Assembly: GCA_018648325.1 (NCBI GenBank)
Contig: JABGRK010000010.1
Coordinates: forward strand, 72,621 to 136,620
Reading direction: 5' to 3'
Length of the DNA stretch: 64,000 bases
From: Chloroflexota bacterium
GTDB taxonomy: Bacteria > Chloroflexota > Dehalococcoidia > JABGRK01
Shown here: one piece after another, positions 56,536-62,995 of the stretch
How the letters are laid out: each line of letters begins with the position of its first letter
How positions within the stretch are numbered: position 1 is the first letter of the stretch
Program-made: the position numbers and the translations under genes
The notes under the pieces: model-generated
The model's database searches: none
Seen by the model: the letters and a program-made list of their open reading frames with translations, nothing else
What the model was told of the DNA's origin: nothing

Positions 56536-57187
56536 ATTCGACGGATTTGCCGACAACATGCGCTACAGTTCAATACCAAGCGCGTTTTTCAGCTCCGTCA
56601 TGCCCCATATCAGCGACATTGATGAACTCAAGGCCACGCTTCAAGCTATACGTCTGCTGATTCCCAAAAAAGGCTATCCCAAATACATAACCTTTCAGGA
56701 ACTACTCAAGGCGGGACCGAAAGACGAGGCAACCTTGCAACGAGGGCTAAAACTGGCAGCGACTCGCGGAATTTTACTTCATCTCAAATTTGAAAAAGAC
56801 GCTATTTACCTGCTAAATACGTTAGAAAACAGGGAGGCAGCCGCTAAAATTACGAGCGGTCAAATAAGCATAGGACATATGCCAAAAAAAGATAATGCAG
56901 AAATCCCTGTGCAGCGTCCCAATATATTCGACCTGTACGAACAAAATGTGGGCATTCTAACGCCAATGATAGCTGAGGAACTCAAGGAAGCGGAGGATAT
57001 GTATCCCCCGGCCTGGATCGAAGAAGCTATCAAAGAAGCTGTTAGCCTCAATATACGCAAATGGAGATACATCGCCAGCATACTGGAACGCTGGACAGCG
57101 GAAGGCAAGGACGATGGAAAAACTGGACAAAATTCTAAAAAAGACAAGTATTTCAAAAGCAAATACTCCCACCTCTACCAACGCTGA
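56528..57187 (+). CDS. DnaD-like primosomal protein
   Basis: A 219-residue protein. The N-terminal part (about 1-100) resembles the winged-helix DnaD/DnaB fold. The C-terminal part contains FDLYEQNVGILTPMIAEEL and WIEEAIKEAVSLNIRKWRYI, the characteristic DnaD/DnaB C-terminal domain (PF07261). In Firmicutes such proteins assist helicase loading. ATG 56528 overlaps the dnaB stop by eight bases. Its own end overlaps the loader gene by 74 bases. Confidence 0.85.
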   Translation: MTKFDGFADNMRYSSIPSAFFSSVMPHISDIDELKATLQAIRLLIPKKGYPKYITFQELLKAGPKDEATLQRGLKLAATRGILLHLKFEKDAIYLLNTLENREAAAKITSGQISIGHMPKKDNAEIPVQRPNIFDLYEQNVGILTPMIAEELKEAEDMYPPAWIEEAIKEAVSLNIRKWRYIASILERWTAEGKDDGKTGQNSKKDKYFKSKYSHLYQR

Positions 57188-58505
57188 TGATGAGGACATA
57201 GAGTATTCTTGCGAAAAATGTAAAGATCAGGGTTGGCTGAGCTATGATGTGCCCTATGGCGACATCAATTTCGGCAAGCTGTTCCCCTGCGAGTGCAAAC
57301 AGCAGGAAATGAGTGCCGGCAGGCAGGCCAGGCTTGAACGCTACAGCAACTTGGGACCACTGACTCATCTCACATTTGAAACACTTATAGAAACGGGTCG
57401 CAGCAGCGATCCCAAAAACCAGGAGCTGTTCAAAAAAGCGCTGGCAGCTACAAAAGCCTTCGCCAAAAAACCTGATGGCTGGCTGGTACTCACCGGCAGC
57501 AGCGGTAGCGGCAAAACACATCTGGCTGCATCCGTGGCCAACAACCTGATAAAGGCAGGACAACCCGCGCTTTTCATCGTAGTTCCAGACCTACTTGACC
57601 ACCTGCGTTCGACCTTCAGCCCCGGCAGTGAGATATCATACGACGAACTTTTTAATCAGGTATTAAATGCTCCACTATTGATACTGGACGATCTGGGCAC
57701 GCAGAGCAGTACGGCCTGGGCACAGGAAAAACTGTTTCAAATAGTAAACAATCGTTTTAACTCCAAACTGCCCACTATATTTACCACCAACCTTATGCCG
57801 GAAGAACTGCCGGAAAGACTACGCACCAGACTAACCGATGTAACTTTGTCACAAGTGTTCCTGGTAGGAGAAAGTCAGCATCCGTTAATGACCAACATAA
57901 GCCCTCTCGAACTCTCCCTGCTTAAAACTATGACGTTCGATAATTTTGATTCACAACGCCTGGATCTGCCATCCGATCAGAGACAAAACATAGAATTAGC
58001 TTTCAGGAGAGCTCATAATTATGCGCAAAAGCCTGAGGGTTGGCAGATTTTAGTGGGAACCCACGGCTGCGGAAAAACCCACCTCGCTGCTGCCATTGCC
58101 AACTATAGATTACAGTCCGGACATCCAGTCGAGTTTCAGATAGTGCCTGAATTCCTGGATCATCTGCGATTCACCTTCGATCCCGGCAGTAAGATCACCT
58201 ATGACAGCCTGTTCGAAAGAGTAAAAAAGGCGCCACTTTTAGTTCTGGACGATATCGGCGCCCAGACCAGCACACCATGGGCGCAGGAAAAGCTGTACCA
58301 GGTTATAAACTATCGCTACAATGATAAACTACCTACAGTATTTACTACCGTACTCGATCTCGAAGAGCTTGAAGACCGGCTTAGCTCACGCATGATGGAC
58401 ACCTCCCTCAGCAATATGTTCCACATAATGGCCCCCGACTATAGATCTGATCGCGAACCAAAAAGGCCCTCAATAAAACAAAAAGGCAAAGGCAAGCAAA
58501 AGTAA
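57114..58505 (+). CDS. DnaC/DnaI-like helicase loader with tandem duplicated AAA+ modules
   Basis: A 463-residue protein with two complete loader-type ATPase modules. The N-terminus carries a zinc-finger-like CEKC (33-36) and CEC (59-61) pattern, as in DnaC/DnaI. Module 1 has Walker A TGSSGSGKT (127-135), Walker B LLILDDLG (188-195) and Arg-rich RLRTR. Module 2 repeats each: GTHGCGKT (315-322), LLVLDDIG (375-382), RLSSR. Spacing is about 187 residues. Ordinary loaders have one module and about 250-310 residues. Its position after dnaB and a DnaD-like gene makes a loader role likely. Confidence 0.88.
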   Translation: MEKLDKILKKTSISKANTPTSTNADDEDIEYSCEKCKDQGWLSYDVPYGDINFGKLFPCECKQQEMSAGRQARLERYSNLGPLTHLTFETLIETGRSSDPKNQELFKKALAATKAFAKKPDGWLVLTGSSGSGKTHLAASVANNLIKAGQPALFIVVPDLLDHLRSTFSPGSEISYDELFNQVLNAPLLILDDLGTQSSTAWAQEKLFQIVNNRFNSKLPTIFTTNLMPEELPERLRTRLTDVTLSQVFLVGESQHPLMTNISPLELSLLKTMTFDNFDSQRLDLPSDQRQNIELAFRRAHNYAQKPEGWQILVGTHGCGKTHLAAAIANYRLQSGHPVEFQIVPEFLDHLRFTFDPGSKITYDSLFERVKKAPLLVLDDIGAQTSTPWAQEKLYQVINYRYNDKLPTVFTTVLDLEELEDRLSSRMMDTSLSNMFHIMAPDYRSDREPKRPSIKQKGKGKQK

Positions 58506-58633: not shown

Positions 58634-59053
58634 ATGCAAAGTAACGACACAAAAACAGACAAGTTACCCGTCAAGAGGAATACCAGTCAGCGCAAGCTTC
58701 TGCTGGAAATACTCAATAAGGCCGACGGGCACCTGGATGCAGATGAACTATTCAGGCGTGCCAAGCTGCAAGAGCCGCACATAAGCTTGTCCACCGTCTA
58801 CCGCACCCTGAGGCTATTTAAAGAAATGGGCGTGATAACGGAAAGACACTTTATTGAAGAGCACCACCACTACGAGGTAAAGCCCAAATCAGATCATCAT
58901 CATTTACTATGCGCTGGGTGCGGGCAGGTGGTTGAGTTCGATCTGGAGCAGATAAGCAAGATAGCAAAGAAAATAGGGCTTGAGCACGATTTTGAAGTAA
59001 CAGGCTGTGACCTTCATATAGAGGGATATTGCCCCTCCTGCAAAAAGACCTGA
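58634..59053 (+). CDS. Fur-family metal-dependent transcriptional regulator
   Basis: A 139-residue regulator. Winged HTH (about 15-85, with LSTVYRTLRLFKEMGVI), His-rich hinge HFIEEHHHYEV and DHHHLLCAGCGQV, and a C-terminal CDLHIEGYCPSC zinc site (two CXXC pairs). It represses metal uptake or peroxide genes on binding Fe, Zn or Mn. Its place before an iron operon carrying a Fur box makes Fur the best guess; PerR or Zur is not excluded. Confidence 0.92.
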   Translation: MQSNDTKTDKLPVKRNTSQRKLLLEILNKADGHLDADELFRRAKLQEPHISLSTVYRTLRLFKEMGVITERHFIEEHHHYEVKPKSDHHHLLCAGCGQVVEFDLEQISKIAKKIGLEHDFEVTGCDLHIEGYCPSCKKT

Positions 59054-59112
59054 GGAAACTGGATTTATATAAAAAGGATGTCTACTTTATTTTTCGTACA
59101 TATTAATGCAAA

Positions 59113-59127
59113 TGATTCTTATTATCA
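59113..59127. promoter_or_regulatory. Fur box upstream of split feoB operon
   Basis: TGATTCTTATTATCA matches the 7-1-7 Fur consensus TGATAAT-N-ATTATCA at 12 of 14 positions. The outer AATGAT/ATCATT also forms an inverted repeat. It ends 15 bases before the first ATG of the iron operon and 60 bases after the fur-like gene. Confidence 0.65.
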
Positions 59128-59142
59128 TTAAGCACGATTGAA

Positions 59143-59736
59143 ATGAGCAGAAACGCAATGAAAATTAATATCCTACCAAAAATTCTAAACAGAGGAAAAA
59201 GCGCCGGTTCATGCCACACCGAAGATGAACTTTCCGATAATACGGGCATCGCAAAGGTAGCCATAGTCGGGACGCCAAACGTCGGAAAGAGCGTCATTTT
59301 CAACCGGCTGACCGGCCGCCACGCCACTATCTCGAACTACCCGGGCACAACCGTGACCATGTCCAGAGGAAAAATCAAAATCGCTGACATAGAAATGGAG
59401 ATTGTTGACACCCCCGGCATGTACTCCCTGCTACCTATTACGGAGGAAGAGCGCGTAGCCAGATCAATTCTGCTTGAGGAAAAACCCAATCTGGTTATGC
59501 ATGTGGTAGACGGCAAAAATCTGGGACGTATGCTGCCCTTTACAATGCAGCTTATTGAGGCGGAACTAAATACGCTTCTGGTGCTCAACATGATGGACGA
59601 AACCGAAGCTGCCGGAATAGAAATTGATATTAACGAACTGGAAAGCCAACTGGGGATACCTGTAGTCAGCACAGTGGCCACACGAAGCCACGGTATCGAT
59701 AACCTGAAAATAAAAATTGAAGAAGCATTTAAATAA
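59143..59736 (+). CDS. FeoB G-protein domain as a separate protein
   Basis: A 197-residue stand-alone GTPase. An N-terminal tail of about 38 residues precedes G1 GTPNVGKSV, switch I SNYPGTTV, G3 DTPGMYS, G4 NMMDE and a G5-like segment in VATRSHG. These are the FeoB G-domain motifs. The membrane part of FeoB is encoded separately 0.9 kb downstream, so the two must work in trans. An alternative ATG at 59158 would remove five residues. No ribosome site is obvious. Confidence 0.9.
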   Translation: MSRNAMKINILPKILNRGKSAGSCHTEDELSDNTGIAKVAIVGTPNVGKSVIFNRLTGRHATISNYPGTTVTMSRGKIKIADIEMEIVDTPGMYSLLPITEEERVARSILLEEKPNLVMHVVDGKNLGRMLPFTMQLIEAELNTLLVLNMMDETEAAGIEIDINELESQLGIPVVSTVATRSHGIDNLKIKIEEAFK

Positions 59737-59749
59737 GGAGAACCAAACA

Positions 59750-60601
59750 ATGATTGCATCAATGTTAATAACGCTGCGGGAAGGGCTGGAAGCAGCATTA
59801 ATAATAGGCATAATTCTGGCTTATCTGGCCAAAACCGGAAACAGGCAAGCCTTCAAGCCAGTATGGATCGGCGTTGCGCTGGCAGTTGCTGTAAGCATGA
59901 TTGTCGGCGGGATCATTTTCTGGACAGCTGGTGAATTCAGCGGCAAAGGCGAGGAGATATTCGAGGGAATCGCCATGTTCGTAGCCGTGGGCGTGCTCAC
60001 CTGGATGATATTCTGGATGCGCAAACAGGCGGCGGGTATTAAAGCTCATCTGCATTCTCAAATCGATTCGGCACTTGGTAATAACTCGATAAAAGCCCTT
60101 GTCATACTAGCCTTTGTGGTTGTAGTACGAGAAGGAATTGAAACGGCGCTGTTCCTGTTTGCCTCAACACGGGTTTCAGAATCAACCGAGTCCTCACTTA
60201 TAGGCGGACTTATCGGACTGGCCATTGCCATTGCTATAGGATACGCTTTCTATCGCGGAAGCGCCAGGCTCAACCTTAAAACCATCTTTAACGTAACCGG
60301 ATTGCTGCTGATCGTATTTGCGGCAGGGCTTCTGGCTCACGGTATCCATGAATTCCACGAGGCCGGTCTCATACCTACGGGAATTGAACATGTGTGGAAT
60401 ATCAATCATATCATCGATGAGAAATCCACCGTAGGCGCCTTCCTCAAGGCACTCGTGGGTTACAATGGCAATCCATCACTCGTTGAGGTAATAGCATACG
60501 TCGTGTTTCTGACAACAGCACTAGCGGCATTCCTGCGCCCATGGAAGTACATACGACGGCAGAAAAGCAACGTGTACCAGATACAAAAACAAGTCAGATA
60601 A
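59750..60601 (+). CDS. FTR1/EfeU-family iron permease
   Basis: A 283-residue membrane protein with seven predicted helices. Both REGxE iron-binding motifs are present (LREGLEAALIIG near residue 8, VREGIETALFLF near 130). Members transport ferric or ferrous iron. It starts at ATG 59750, with GGAGAA upstream, 13 bases after the G-protein gene. An upstream in-frame start would overlap that gene. Its insertion between the two parts of FeoB is unusual. No EfeO or EfeB partner is encoded nearby. Confidence 0.93.
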   Translation: MIASMLITLREGLEAALIIGIILAYLAKTGNRQAFKPVWIGVALAVAVSMIVGGIIFWTAGEFSGKGEEIFEGIAMFVAVGVLTWMIFWMRKQAAGIKAHLHSQIDSALGNNSIKALVILAFVVVVREGIETALFLFASTRVSESTESSLIGGLIGLAIAIAIGYAFYRGSARLNLKTIFNVTGLLLIVFAAGLLAHGIHEFHEAGLIPTGIEHVWNINHIIDEKSTVGAFLKALVGYNGNPSLVEVIAYVVFLTTALAAFLRPWKYIRRQKSNVYQIQKQVR

Positions 60602-60619
60602 GAAAGATACAGATGTAAT

Positions 60620-62077
60620 ATGCTTAAAGATGCACCAAAGCAAATCGTATACGGCGCAGCAATAGAATCGGCCATCGACAGCATCCAAAAACTGCTGGCG
60701 GGCAATTATGCCGTTTCCAAAAAGGCCATCGCCATACTGCTGTTGCAGGGCGATACTGAGATAGCAGACAAGGTTAAAGCCCGTGAAGGCGATCACTTCG
60801 AGCGCATTACTGAGATAATATCGCAGGCTCAGTCCGGCTATGGACAAGAGCTCAGCTACGTAATGGCCATGAGCCGCCAGCAACATGCGCGCGATATTCT
60901 GGCAAAAACAGTTGTCAGCCAACCAAAAATAGGTAAGGGGTTTGCCGAAAGACTGAGTCGCATTACCATGCATCCGGTAACCGGCATACCCATTCTTATC
61001 GCCGTACTCTATGTAGGCCTGTACTGGTTCGTGGGTGTATTCGGAGCAGGCACACTTGTCGGACTGCTTGAAGAAAATCTTTTCCAAGATTGGCTCAATC
61101 CATTGCTGTTGGACGCCTTTGAATGGCTCATTCCTGTCGATTGGTTAAGAAATCTGTTTGTGGGAGAGTTCGGTATTTTTACCATGGGTCTTACCTATGC
61201 CTTCGCCATAATCCTGCCGATAGTGGGCACCTTCTTTATCGTTTTCTCAATTATCGAAGACAGCGGTTACCTGCCACGGCTGGCCATGCTGCTGGATCGA
61301 ATATTCAAGAAGATCGGCCTTTCCGGCCGTGCTGTAATCCCTATGGTTCTAGGATTGGGTTGCGACACCATGGCAACCATCGTCACCAGAACGCAGGAAA
61401 CCAAGCGGGAACGCATCATCACTACTCTTCTGCTGGCCCTTGCCATCCCCTGCTCGGCACAGCTCGGGGTCATCCTGGGTATTCTGTCCACCAATGGGAT
61501 GGCACTTCTCATCTGGATTATTACCATGCTTTTTGTACTGCTACTGATAGGCTATCTTGCATCCAAGGTAATACCCGGAAAAAAAACCAATTTTTACATG
61601 GAAATCCCGCCTCTAAGGCTACCCAGACTCTCCAATGTACTGGCCAAAACCTATGCCCGGCTGCAGTGGTATTTAAAAGAGGTTGTGCCCTTTTTCGTGC
61701 TGGCCAGTTTTGTCCTGTGGCTGGGTGATCTAACCGGCGTCTTCGATTACGTGATCAAAGGGCTGGAGCCTATAGTCAGAGGCATCGGCCTGCCCAATGA
61801 AACATCAGAGGTTTTCCTGATAGGCTTTTTCAGACGTGACTTCGGTGCTGCCGGACTGTATACAATGGTCGAAGACGGATTAATTGCCGGAGTGCCGCTG
61901 GTAGTGGCGGCGGTTACACTCACCTTGTTCGTTCCCTGCATAGCCCAATTCCTGGTCATGATAAAAGAAAGAGGCAAAAAGGTGGCGCTGGCCATAACCG
62001 CGTTTGTATTCCCCTTTGCCTTCTTTGTGGGATTCTTGCTTAATACAATCTTGAATGCACTGGGGATTAAACTATGA
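60620..62077 (+). CDS. FeoB membrane domain, lacking the G domain
   Basis: A 485-residue protein. The first 80 residues match the helical regulatory domain that follows the G domain in FeoB (KKAIAILLLQGD). Then come two Gate-type domains: FFIVFSIIEDSGYLPR, GLSGRAVIPMVLGLGCDTMA, ALAIPCSAQLGV and VLWLGDLTGVFDY. So the split lies exactly at the G-domain boundary. Eight or more membrane helices. It is separated from its G-protein by the FTR1 gene. Overlaps the zinc-ribbon gene by four bases. Confidence 0.93.
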   Translation: MLKDAPKQIVYGAAIESAIDSIQKLLAGNYAVSKKAIAILLLQGDTEIADKVKAREGDHFERITEIISQAQSGYGQELSYVMAMSRQQHARDILAKTVVSQPKIGKGFAERLSRITMHPVTGIPILIAVLYVGLYWFVGVFGAGTLVGLLEENLFQDWLNPLLLDAFEWLIPVDWLRNLFVGEFGIFTMGLTYAFAIILPIVGTFFIVFSIIEDSGYLPRLAMLLDRIFKKIGLSGRAVIPMVLGLGCDTMATIVTRTQETKRERIITTLLLALAIPCSAQLGVILGILSTNGMALLIWIITMLFVLLLIGYLASKVIPGKKTNFYMEIPPLRLPRLSNVLAKTYARLQWYLKEVVPFFVLASFVLWLGDLTGVFDYVIKGLEPIVRGIGLPNETSEVFLIGFFRRDFGAAGLYTMVEDGLIAGVPLVVAAVTLTLFVPCIAQFLVMIKERGKKVALAITAFVFPFAFFVGFLLNTILNALGIKL

Positions 62078-62268
62078 AATGTGCACTATGCGGATTTGAA
62101 TTTGCTGAAGACGACGCTCAAGCATCCTGCAAGGGATGTCCGGTTTCCCGTGGCTGCAACATGGTAAAATGTCCCAACTGCGGCTATGAGGAACCCAAAG
62201 AACCGCGACTGGTTAAAATTATACGTAGACTATTTAAGGGCCGGAGGAAAAGTAAAAATGCAACTTGA
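62074..62268 (+). CDS. Small zinc-ribbon protein of the iron operon
   Basis: A 64-residue basic protein with CALC, CKGCPVSRGC and CPNC motifs, enough for one or two metal sites, followed by a Lys/Arg-rich tail. It overlaps feoB by ATGA and the DtxR-FeoA gene by 11 bases. Similar Cys-rich short proteins are seen beside FeoB in other bacteria, where they are not well characterised. Could be a FeoC-like accessory or a metal sensor. Confidence 0.75.
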   Translation: MKCALCGFEFAEDDAQASCKGCPVSRGCNMVKCPNCGYEEPKEPRLVKIIRRLFKGRRKSKNAT

Positions 62269-62995
62269 AGAAAATACAGAAGAACTTCTGGAAACCCTGT
62301 GGATTCGCCAGAAAGAAAAGAAAAGTCTTCCCTCCGTAGAGGAACTTGCAGATAACAAGCCTATATTGGATAAACTGCTTGATGAAGGATACGTATCGGT
62401 TGCCGATAACAAGGTGTCGCTAACTAAAAAAGGCCTGCCCGAGGCAAAAAGCGTTATTCGCCGGCACAGACTAGCCGAACGCCTGCTTTACGATGTACTA
62501 GGAACCAGCGATATGCTACTGCATGATAAAGCCTGCAAGTTTGAACATCTGCTCGACCGCGGGCTGGACGAAAGCATATGCATCCTGCTGGGGCACCCCA
62601 AGGTCTGCCCGCACGGTAAAGCTATACCTGCCGGTAATTGCTGCAAACAGCAAAAAACCCAGGCTCAAAAAGTGGTATATCCGCTTTCACAACTCTCAAG
62701 CGGACAACATGGCAAAGTTGCCTATATACATGCGCCGGAGACGGGCCAACTGCAAAAGCTCATGTCTATGGGAGTGCTGCCGGGTGAGCCGATCAAACTG
62801 GTTCAAAGTTTCCCCTCATACGTTTTCGAGGTTCGCCACAGCCAGTTTGCAGCAGATGATGACATAGCACAGGCCATCTACGTGCGCCTGCCCGGACAGG
62901 AAGAGCTTGTTGGTAAAGAAGAAACGAGCACATCAGAAACAAACGCTTCCCCCAAAAAACGCGGATTGTGGAACACGCTACTGCGCCGGGATTAA
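62258..62995 (+). CDS. DtxR-family metalloregulator fused to FeoA domain
   Basis: A 245-residue protein. Winged HTH (about 1-65), DtxR metal-binding and dimerisation domain with RRHRLAERLLYDVLG, FEHLLDRGLDE and LGHPKVCPHGKAIP, then a FeoA/SH3-like domain (about 150-215). GGAGGAAA precedes ATG 62258; earlier in-frame codons lie inside the zinc-ribbon gene. It should repress metal genes in Fe- or Mn-replete cells, and its SH3 domain also provides the FeoA-like partner for FeoB, since no separate feoA is present. Confidence 0.93.
   Translation: MQLEENTEELLETLWIRQKEKKSLPSVEELADNKPILDKLLDEGYVSVADNKVSLTKKGLPEAKSVIRRHRLAERLLYDVLGTSDMLLHDKACKFEHLLDRGLDESICILLGHPKVCPHGKAIPAGNCCKQQKTQAQKVVYPLSQLSSGQHGKVAYIHAPETGQLQKLMSMGVLPGEPIKLVQSFPSYVFEVRHSQFAADDDIAQAIYVRLPGQEELVGKEETSTSETNASPKKRGLWNTLLRRD

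Follow-up and report, generated by a model that had tools for sequence, protein, structure and literature searches.

Can FeoB operate as two proteins, and does a G protein detached from it also serve a second iron permease? This question is raised by a locus in which the G domain and the remainder of FeoB are encoded by separate genes, with a gene for an FTR1-type permease between them. The locus lies in the window, i.e. the whole stretch of 64,000 nucleotides analysed here, from a Dehalococcoidia genome of 2.0 Mb (93.5% complete, 19 contigs). We consider it very probable that a two-subunit FeoB is encoded, whose G protein acts in trans on the channel, and that FTR1 is an independent passenger of the gene cluster.

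The locus and its genes

An earlier note on this DNA had listed the G domain, the permease and the rest of FeoB as three separate open reading frames. They were found as such, with all frames intact, among the following features:

58634..59053, + strand: fur, Fur-family regulator (Pfam FUR, E 1.2e-32), heading the conserved neighbourhood
59108..59126, no strand assigned: tentative Fur-box-like palindrome between fur and the G gene, 15/19 matches to GATAATGATAATCATTATC
59143..59736, + strand: detached FeoB G protein, 197 aa (FeoB_N, E 3e-57)
59750..60601, + strand: EfeU/FTR1 iron permease, 283 aa, between the feoB parts (FTR1, E 5.6e-58; EfeU equivalog)
60620..62077, + strand: FeoB-M, the membrane subunit, 485 aa (FeoB_Cyto, E 1.3e-15; Gate, E 7.1e-32; FeoB_C, E 2.5e-12)
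62074..62268, + strand: cysteine-rich zinc-ribbon-like protein, 64 aa, conserved and Feo-associated; its ATGA overlaps the feoB stop
62186..62995, + strand: DtxR-type regulator with a C-terminal FeoA domain (Fe_dep_repr_C, E 7.3e-23; FeoA, E 3.1e-13)

A fur gene is found 5' of feoB in many relatives. The palindrome is suggestive only, since the whole window, both strands taken together, has three 15/19 matches. The true start of the DtxR-type regulator is possibly further downstream. Its C-terminal domain gives the single FeoA match in the genome, and a FeoA domain search found no separate FeoA there.

Elsewhere in the window, positions 57114-58505 (+ strand) encode a protein of 463 aa in which two IstB/DnaC-like AAA+ ATPase domains stand in tandem; over 173 residues these share 49% identity. 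The gene adjoins dnaB-like and other replication genes, and a helicase-loader domain appears to have been duplicated within the protein.

The two parts of FeoB

The FeoB_N match spans residues 38-191 of the G protein, and FeoB_Cyto opens the third gene, which places the cut at the G-domain/helical-domain boundary, in agreement with the earlier note. The best relatives of solved structure of the G protein are NFeoB chains. When aligned with fused FeoB, it keeps the motifs G1-G5 of the K+-type G domain (GTPNVGKS, NYPGTT, DTPG, NMMD). FeoB-M begins with the cytosolic helical (GDI) domain at residues 11-98; two Gate stretches and then FeoB_C come after it, and in the same alignment it retains GLGCDTMAT and PCSAQLG, the cysteine-bearing motifs of Gate. 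No match to FeoB-M was found among PDB sequences.

The domains and their order are those of one-chain FeoB (TIGR00437; FeoB_N, FeoB_Cyto, Gate, FeoB_C), with the G motifs and the Gate cysteine motifs kept, and the nearest fused relatives have a membrane part about 60% identical to FeoB-M of the window. The difference is that two chains are made, cut between the G and the helical domain. The TIGR00437 cut-off is 315.65 bits, and the halves score 202 and 229, both below it. The locus does not belong to one-chain FeoB; the G domain and the membrane part are two genes with FTR1 between them. It is FeoB in divided form, which is expected to function as FeoB does.

FeoB_C and FTR1 each occur once in the genome, at this locus. 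No second or full-length FeoB was found by FeoB_C and FeoB_N profile matches in the 93.5%-complete genome. Other FeoB_N matches score much lower; at 323-625 aa, the frames that hold them have the size expected of GTPases like Der, MnmE and Era.

Split FeoB in relatives

A search for the same gene order had been proposed. The split and its neighbourhood recur in other Dehalococcoidia, in Clostridia and in Omnitrophota, with the same cut and up to 65% identity, while FTR1 between the halves was seen in no other locus examined; the lineage of the window is the only one seen to have FTR1 in the junction. These relatives share fur, FeoB-M, the cysteine-rich protein and dtxR-feoA with the window, the common flanks being a Fur-type regulator upstream and the DtxR-FeoA regulator downstream. 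In them the two feoB genes overlap, whereas FTR1 separates the genes in the window. The Clostridia with a two-gene FeoB include the isolate Fervidicola ferrireducens.

Within the class, five relatives (G009, G008, G036, G213, G320) have the order G, FeoB-M, dtxR-feoA without FTR1 between the halves, and G217 shows the same order as far as its contig extends; fur was seen ahead of it in some of the six, not all. A further relative, G040, has the order fur, FTR1, G, FeoB-M. More distant FeoB types of the class are split as well (G053, G020, G279). The order to which the window belongs holds two genomes only. In the other one no FTR1 was found, and its FeoB is fused, different and shorter (570 aa).

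A maximum-likelihood tree was made of 99 FeoB sequences, the split ones being joined. The tree requires 8 changes between split and fused FeoB, at least 5 of which are forced by well-supported branches; it comes from a quick search and holds one long branch (L083). Of the well-supported sets that include the window, the smallest has 18 sequences, 9 split and 9 fused. Such repeated switching, also within the clade of the window, fits pieces that work equally joined or apart.

Two further observations were made on feoB genes. A Chloroflexota genome outside the class (G465) carries both split and fused copies of this FeoB type (L201, L207). In another genome (G027; L076 / L045) an in-frame TGA interrupts feoB in the helical domain, which may be a sequencing error, a pseudogene or recoding.

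The junction between the G gene and FeoB-M

In 25 other split loci the frames of G and FeoB-M overlap. Measured from the earliest start codon available, the overlap is 8-119 bases long, and relative to the G gene FeoB-M is without exception in the +1 frame. In 21 of these loci the overlap contains an ATG, frequently where Tyr-Val codons close the G domain. A ribosome-site match of at least 4 bases precedes a candidate start in 19/25, which is a raw count with no background rate. From its sequence, the overlapping junction looks like translational coupling. In the window FTR1 takes the place of the overlap; a strong ribosome site of FTR1, TAAGGAG, overlaps the G stop, and no clear ribosome site is seen for FeoB-M.

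The FTR1 permease

The permease passes the cut-off of the NCBIfam EfeU model (NF041756) with 292.8 versus 255 bits, and it has two REGxE motifs (REGLE, REGIE), in agreement with the RExxE pattern of the family. In this it resembles EfeU of EfeUOB. It differs from that system in its partners: the genome gave no PF09375 match for an EfeO-type M75 protein, and no P19-type protein (PF10634) was found in it either.

The class was surveyed in 393 genomes, using E <= 1e-15 for FTR1 and E <= 1e-10 for FeoB-M. FTR1 was found in 69 genomes, FeoB-M in 153 and both in 11, so that 58 of the 69 FTR1 genomes are without a detected FeoB membrane part; presence and absence across these MAGs are affected by incompleteness. 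FTR1 and FeoB were seen as neighbours in 4 of the 11 genomes with both, and the position of FTR1 varies among the four: in the window it separates the halves, in G040 it lies upstream of a split pair, and in G011 and G028 it adjoins a fused feoB. In several genomes FTR1 adjoins fur without FeoB nearby. Split FeoB is also found without an FTR1 match (e.g. G036, G217, G320). Conversely, FTR1 homologues that are 56-60% identical occur where neither FeoB part was detected (e.g. G016, G019, G038, G039), the best match to the G protein in these four genomes being weak, at the level of GTPases in general.

The cysteine-rich protein behind feoB

The protein at 62074-62268 has the conserved pattern CxxC...CxxC...C...CPxC, and no Pfam or NCBIfam model scored above its cut-off. 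A profile was built from 12 examples and searched against 110 feoB loci. The protein, of about 60 residues, is encoded just 3' of FeoB in 60 of the 110, in several phyla and in archaea including Methanosarcinaceae, and its gene start usually overlaps the feoB stop. Among the loci of the tree it accompanies 18 of the 23 other split ones and 34 of the 75 fused ones. This protein is possibly a FeoC-like component not recognised before, and it offers a better lead than the link to FTR1.

Alternative explanations

The gene order is unusual and the genome is spread over 19 contigs, which would suit a broken feoB of which only remnants are left, or an assembly join. For remnants, we would not expect what is found here, that frames and motifs are all intact and that the locus carries the only FeoB of the genome. 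A join appears unlikely from the sequence context, because the locus lies well within a contig of 278 kb, its genes are even in GC (0.47-0.50) and both flanks match those of relatives; the same split with the same flanks is present in independent assemblies, including that of the F. ferrireducens isolate (L102). We regard either of the two as extremely improbable. A different reading takes the overlaps of the relatives as sites of programmed ribosomal frameshifting that gives full-length FeoB, the window then being the lineage in which FTR1 broke the fusion. The +1 frame of FeoB-M in every overlapping locus is what this reading has in its favour. However, that constancy has a simple cause in codon make-up: judging from the genetic code, an ATG in +1 arises from Tyr, His, Asn or Asp codons followed by Val, Ala, Asp, Glu or Gly codons, whereas one in +2 requires a Cys or Trp codon. 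Since an out-of-frame ATG in +1 arises from such common codon pairs, the constant frame needs no frameshifting. The G stops have no slippery codon in common, most of the 25 loci have an ATG in the overlap and most have a ribosome-site match ahead of a candidate start, as counted above (the latter with no background rate), and in the window frameshifting is impossible, with FTR1 and stop codons between the genes. Frameshifting is thus very unlikely to account for the split.

It had also been suggested that the detached G protein serves the permease as well, as a shared switch by which the FeoB channel and FTR1 would both be gated or energised. The gene order of the window speaks for this, as do three further genomes of the class in which FTR1 adjoins feoB, one split (G040) and two fused (G011, G028). 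On the other hand, close FTR1 homologues are present in genomes without a detected FeoB G domain, split FeoB is present without a detected FTR1, FTR1 is also found next to fused feoB, whose G domain is tethered, and the position of FTR1 is not constant. FTR1 and FeoB dissociate in both directions, which argues against an obligate pair of G protein and FTR1 and leaves the suggestion unsupported; we regard a shared switch as very unlikely. A private interaction of the two in the lineage of the window alone would be compatible with the dissociation.

Discussion

The preferred explanation is the two-subunit FeoB with FTR1 as a passenger. Of what the earlier note proposed, the two-gene FeoB stands as the only FeoB of the genome, and the service of its G protein to FTR1 does not. 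We propose that the soluble G protein (59143-59736) would bind and hydrolyse GTP and would dock on the helical (GDI) domain carried by FeoB-M, which in one-chain FeoB links the G domain with the channel, replacing the tethered domain in trans, so that gating of the channel would depend on GTP. Judged from their domains, the G protein and FeoB-M together would do the job of one-chain FeoB, uptake of iron(II). FTR1/EfeU would be a separate iron importer with its own route, which presumably moved into the junction in the lineage of the window and would not depend on the G protein. The genes of the cluster may be co-transcribed, and Fur and the DtxR-FeoA regulator probably control them.

Fission and fusion of Feo parts are a recognised mode of evolution (PMC8980893, PMC8749426, PMC10353542). 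These papers treat FeoA-FeoB fusions, loss of FeoC and the placement of Helicobacter feoA apart from feoB (PMC8749426, PMC8980893, PMC10353542), and FeoA-NFeoB proteins without a membrane part are there regarded as possible sequencing errors (PMC8980893). These rearrangements concern FeoA versus FeoB, whereas in the window FeoB itself is divided. No description of FeoB divided at the G/helical boundary was found in the open literature searched, which is weak evidence that none exists.

As neither half reaches the equivalog cut-off, models of one-chain FeoB can miss or mislabel a split FeoB. For annotation this means that split systems can be overlooked or mislabelled.

Tentatively, and with rather less than even confidence, the Feo system of several lineages may be seen as a machine of several parts: a separable G subunit acting in trans, a channel subunit and a cysteine-rich (zinc-ribbon-like) subunit so far unrecognised, encoded with a start that overlaps the feoB stop in bacteria and archaea, which would be a new FeoC-like component. 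In lineages like that of the window the sole FeoA domain would be the one in the adjoining DtxR-type regulator. That FeoB has switched repeatedly between split and fused suggests that a covalent linkage of G domain and channel is not required. A natural two-chain FeoB bears on how the G domain drives the channel, and with it the G protein could be added, removed, swapped or titrated while the channel stays as it is.
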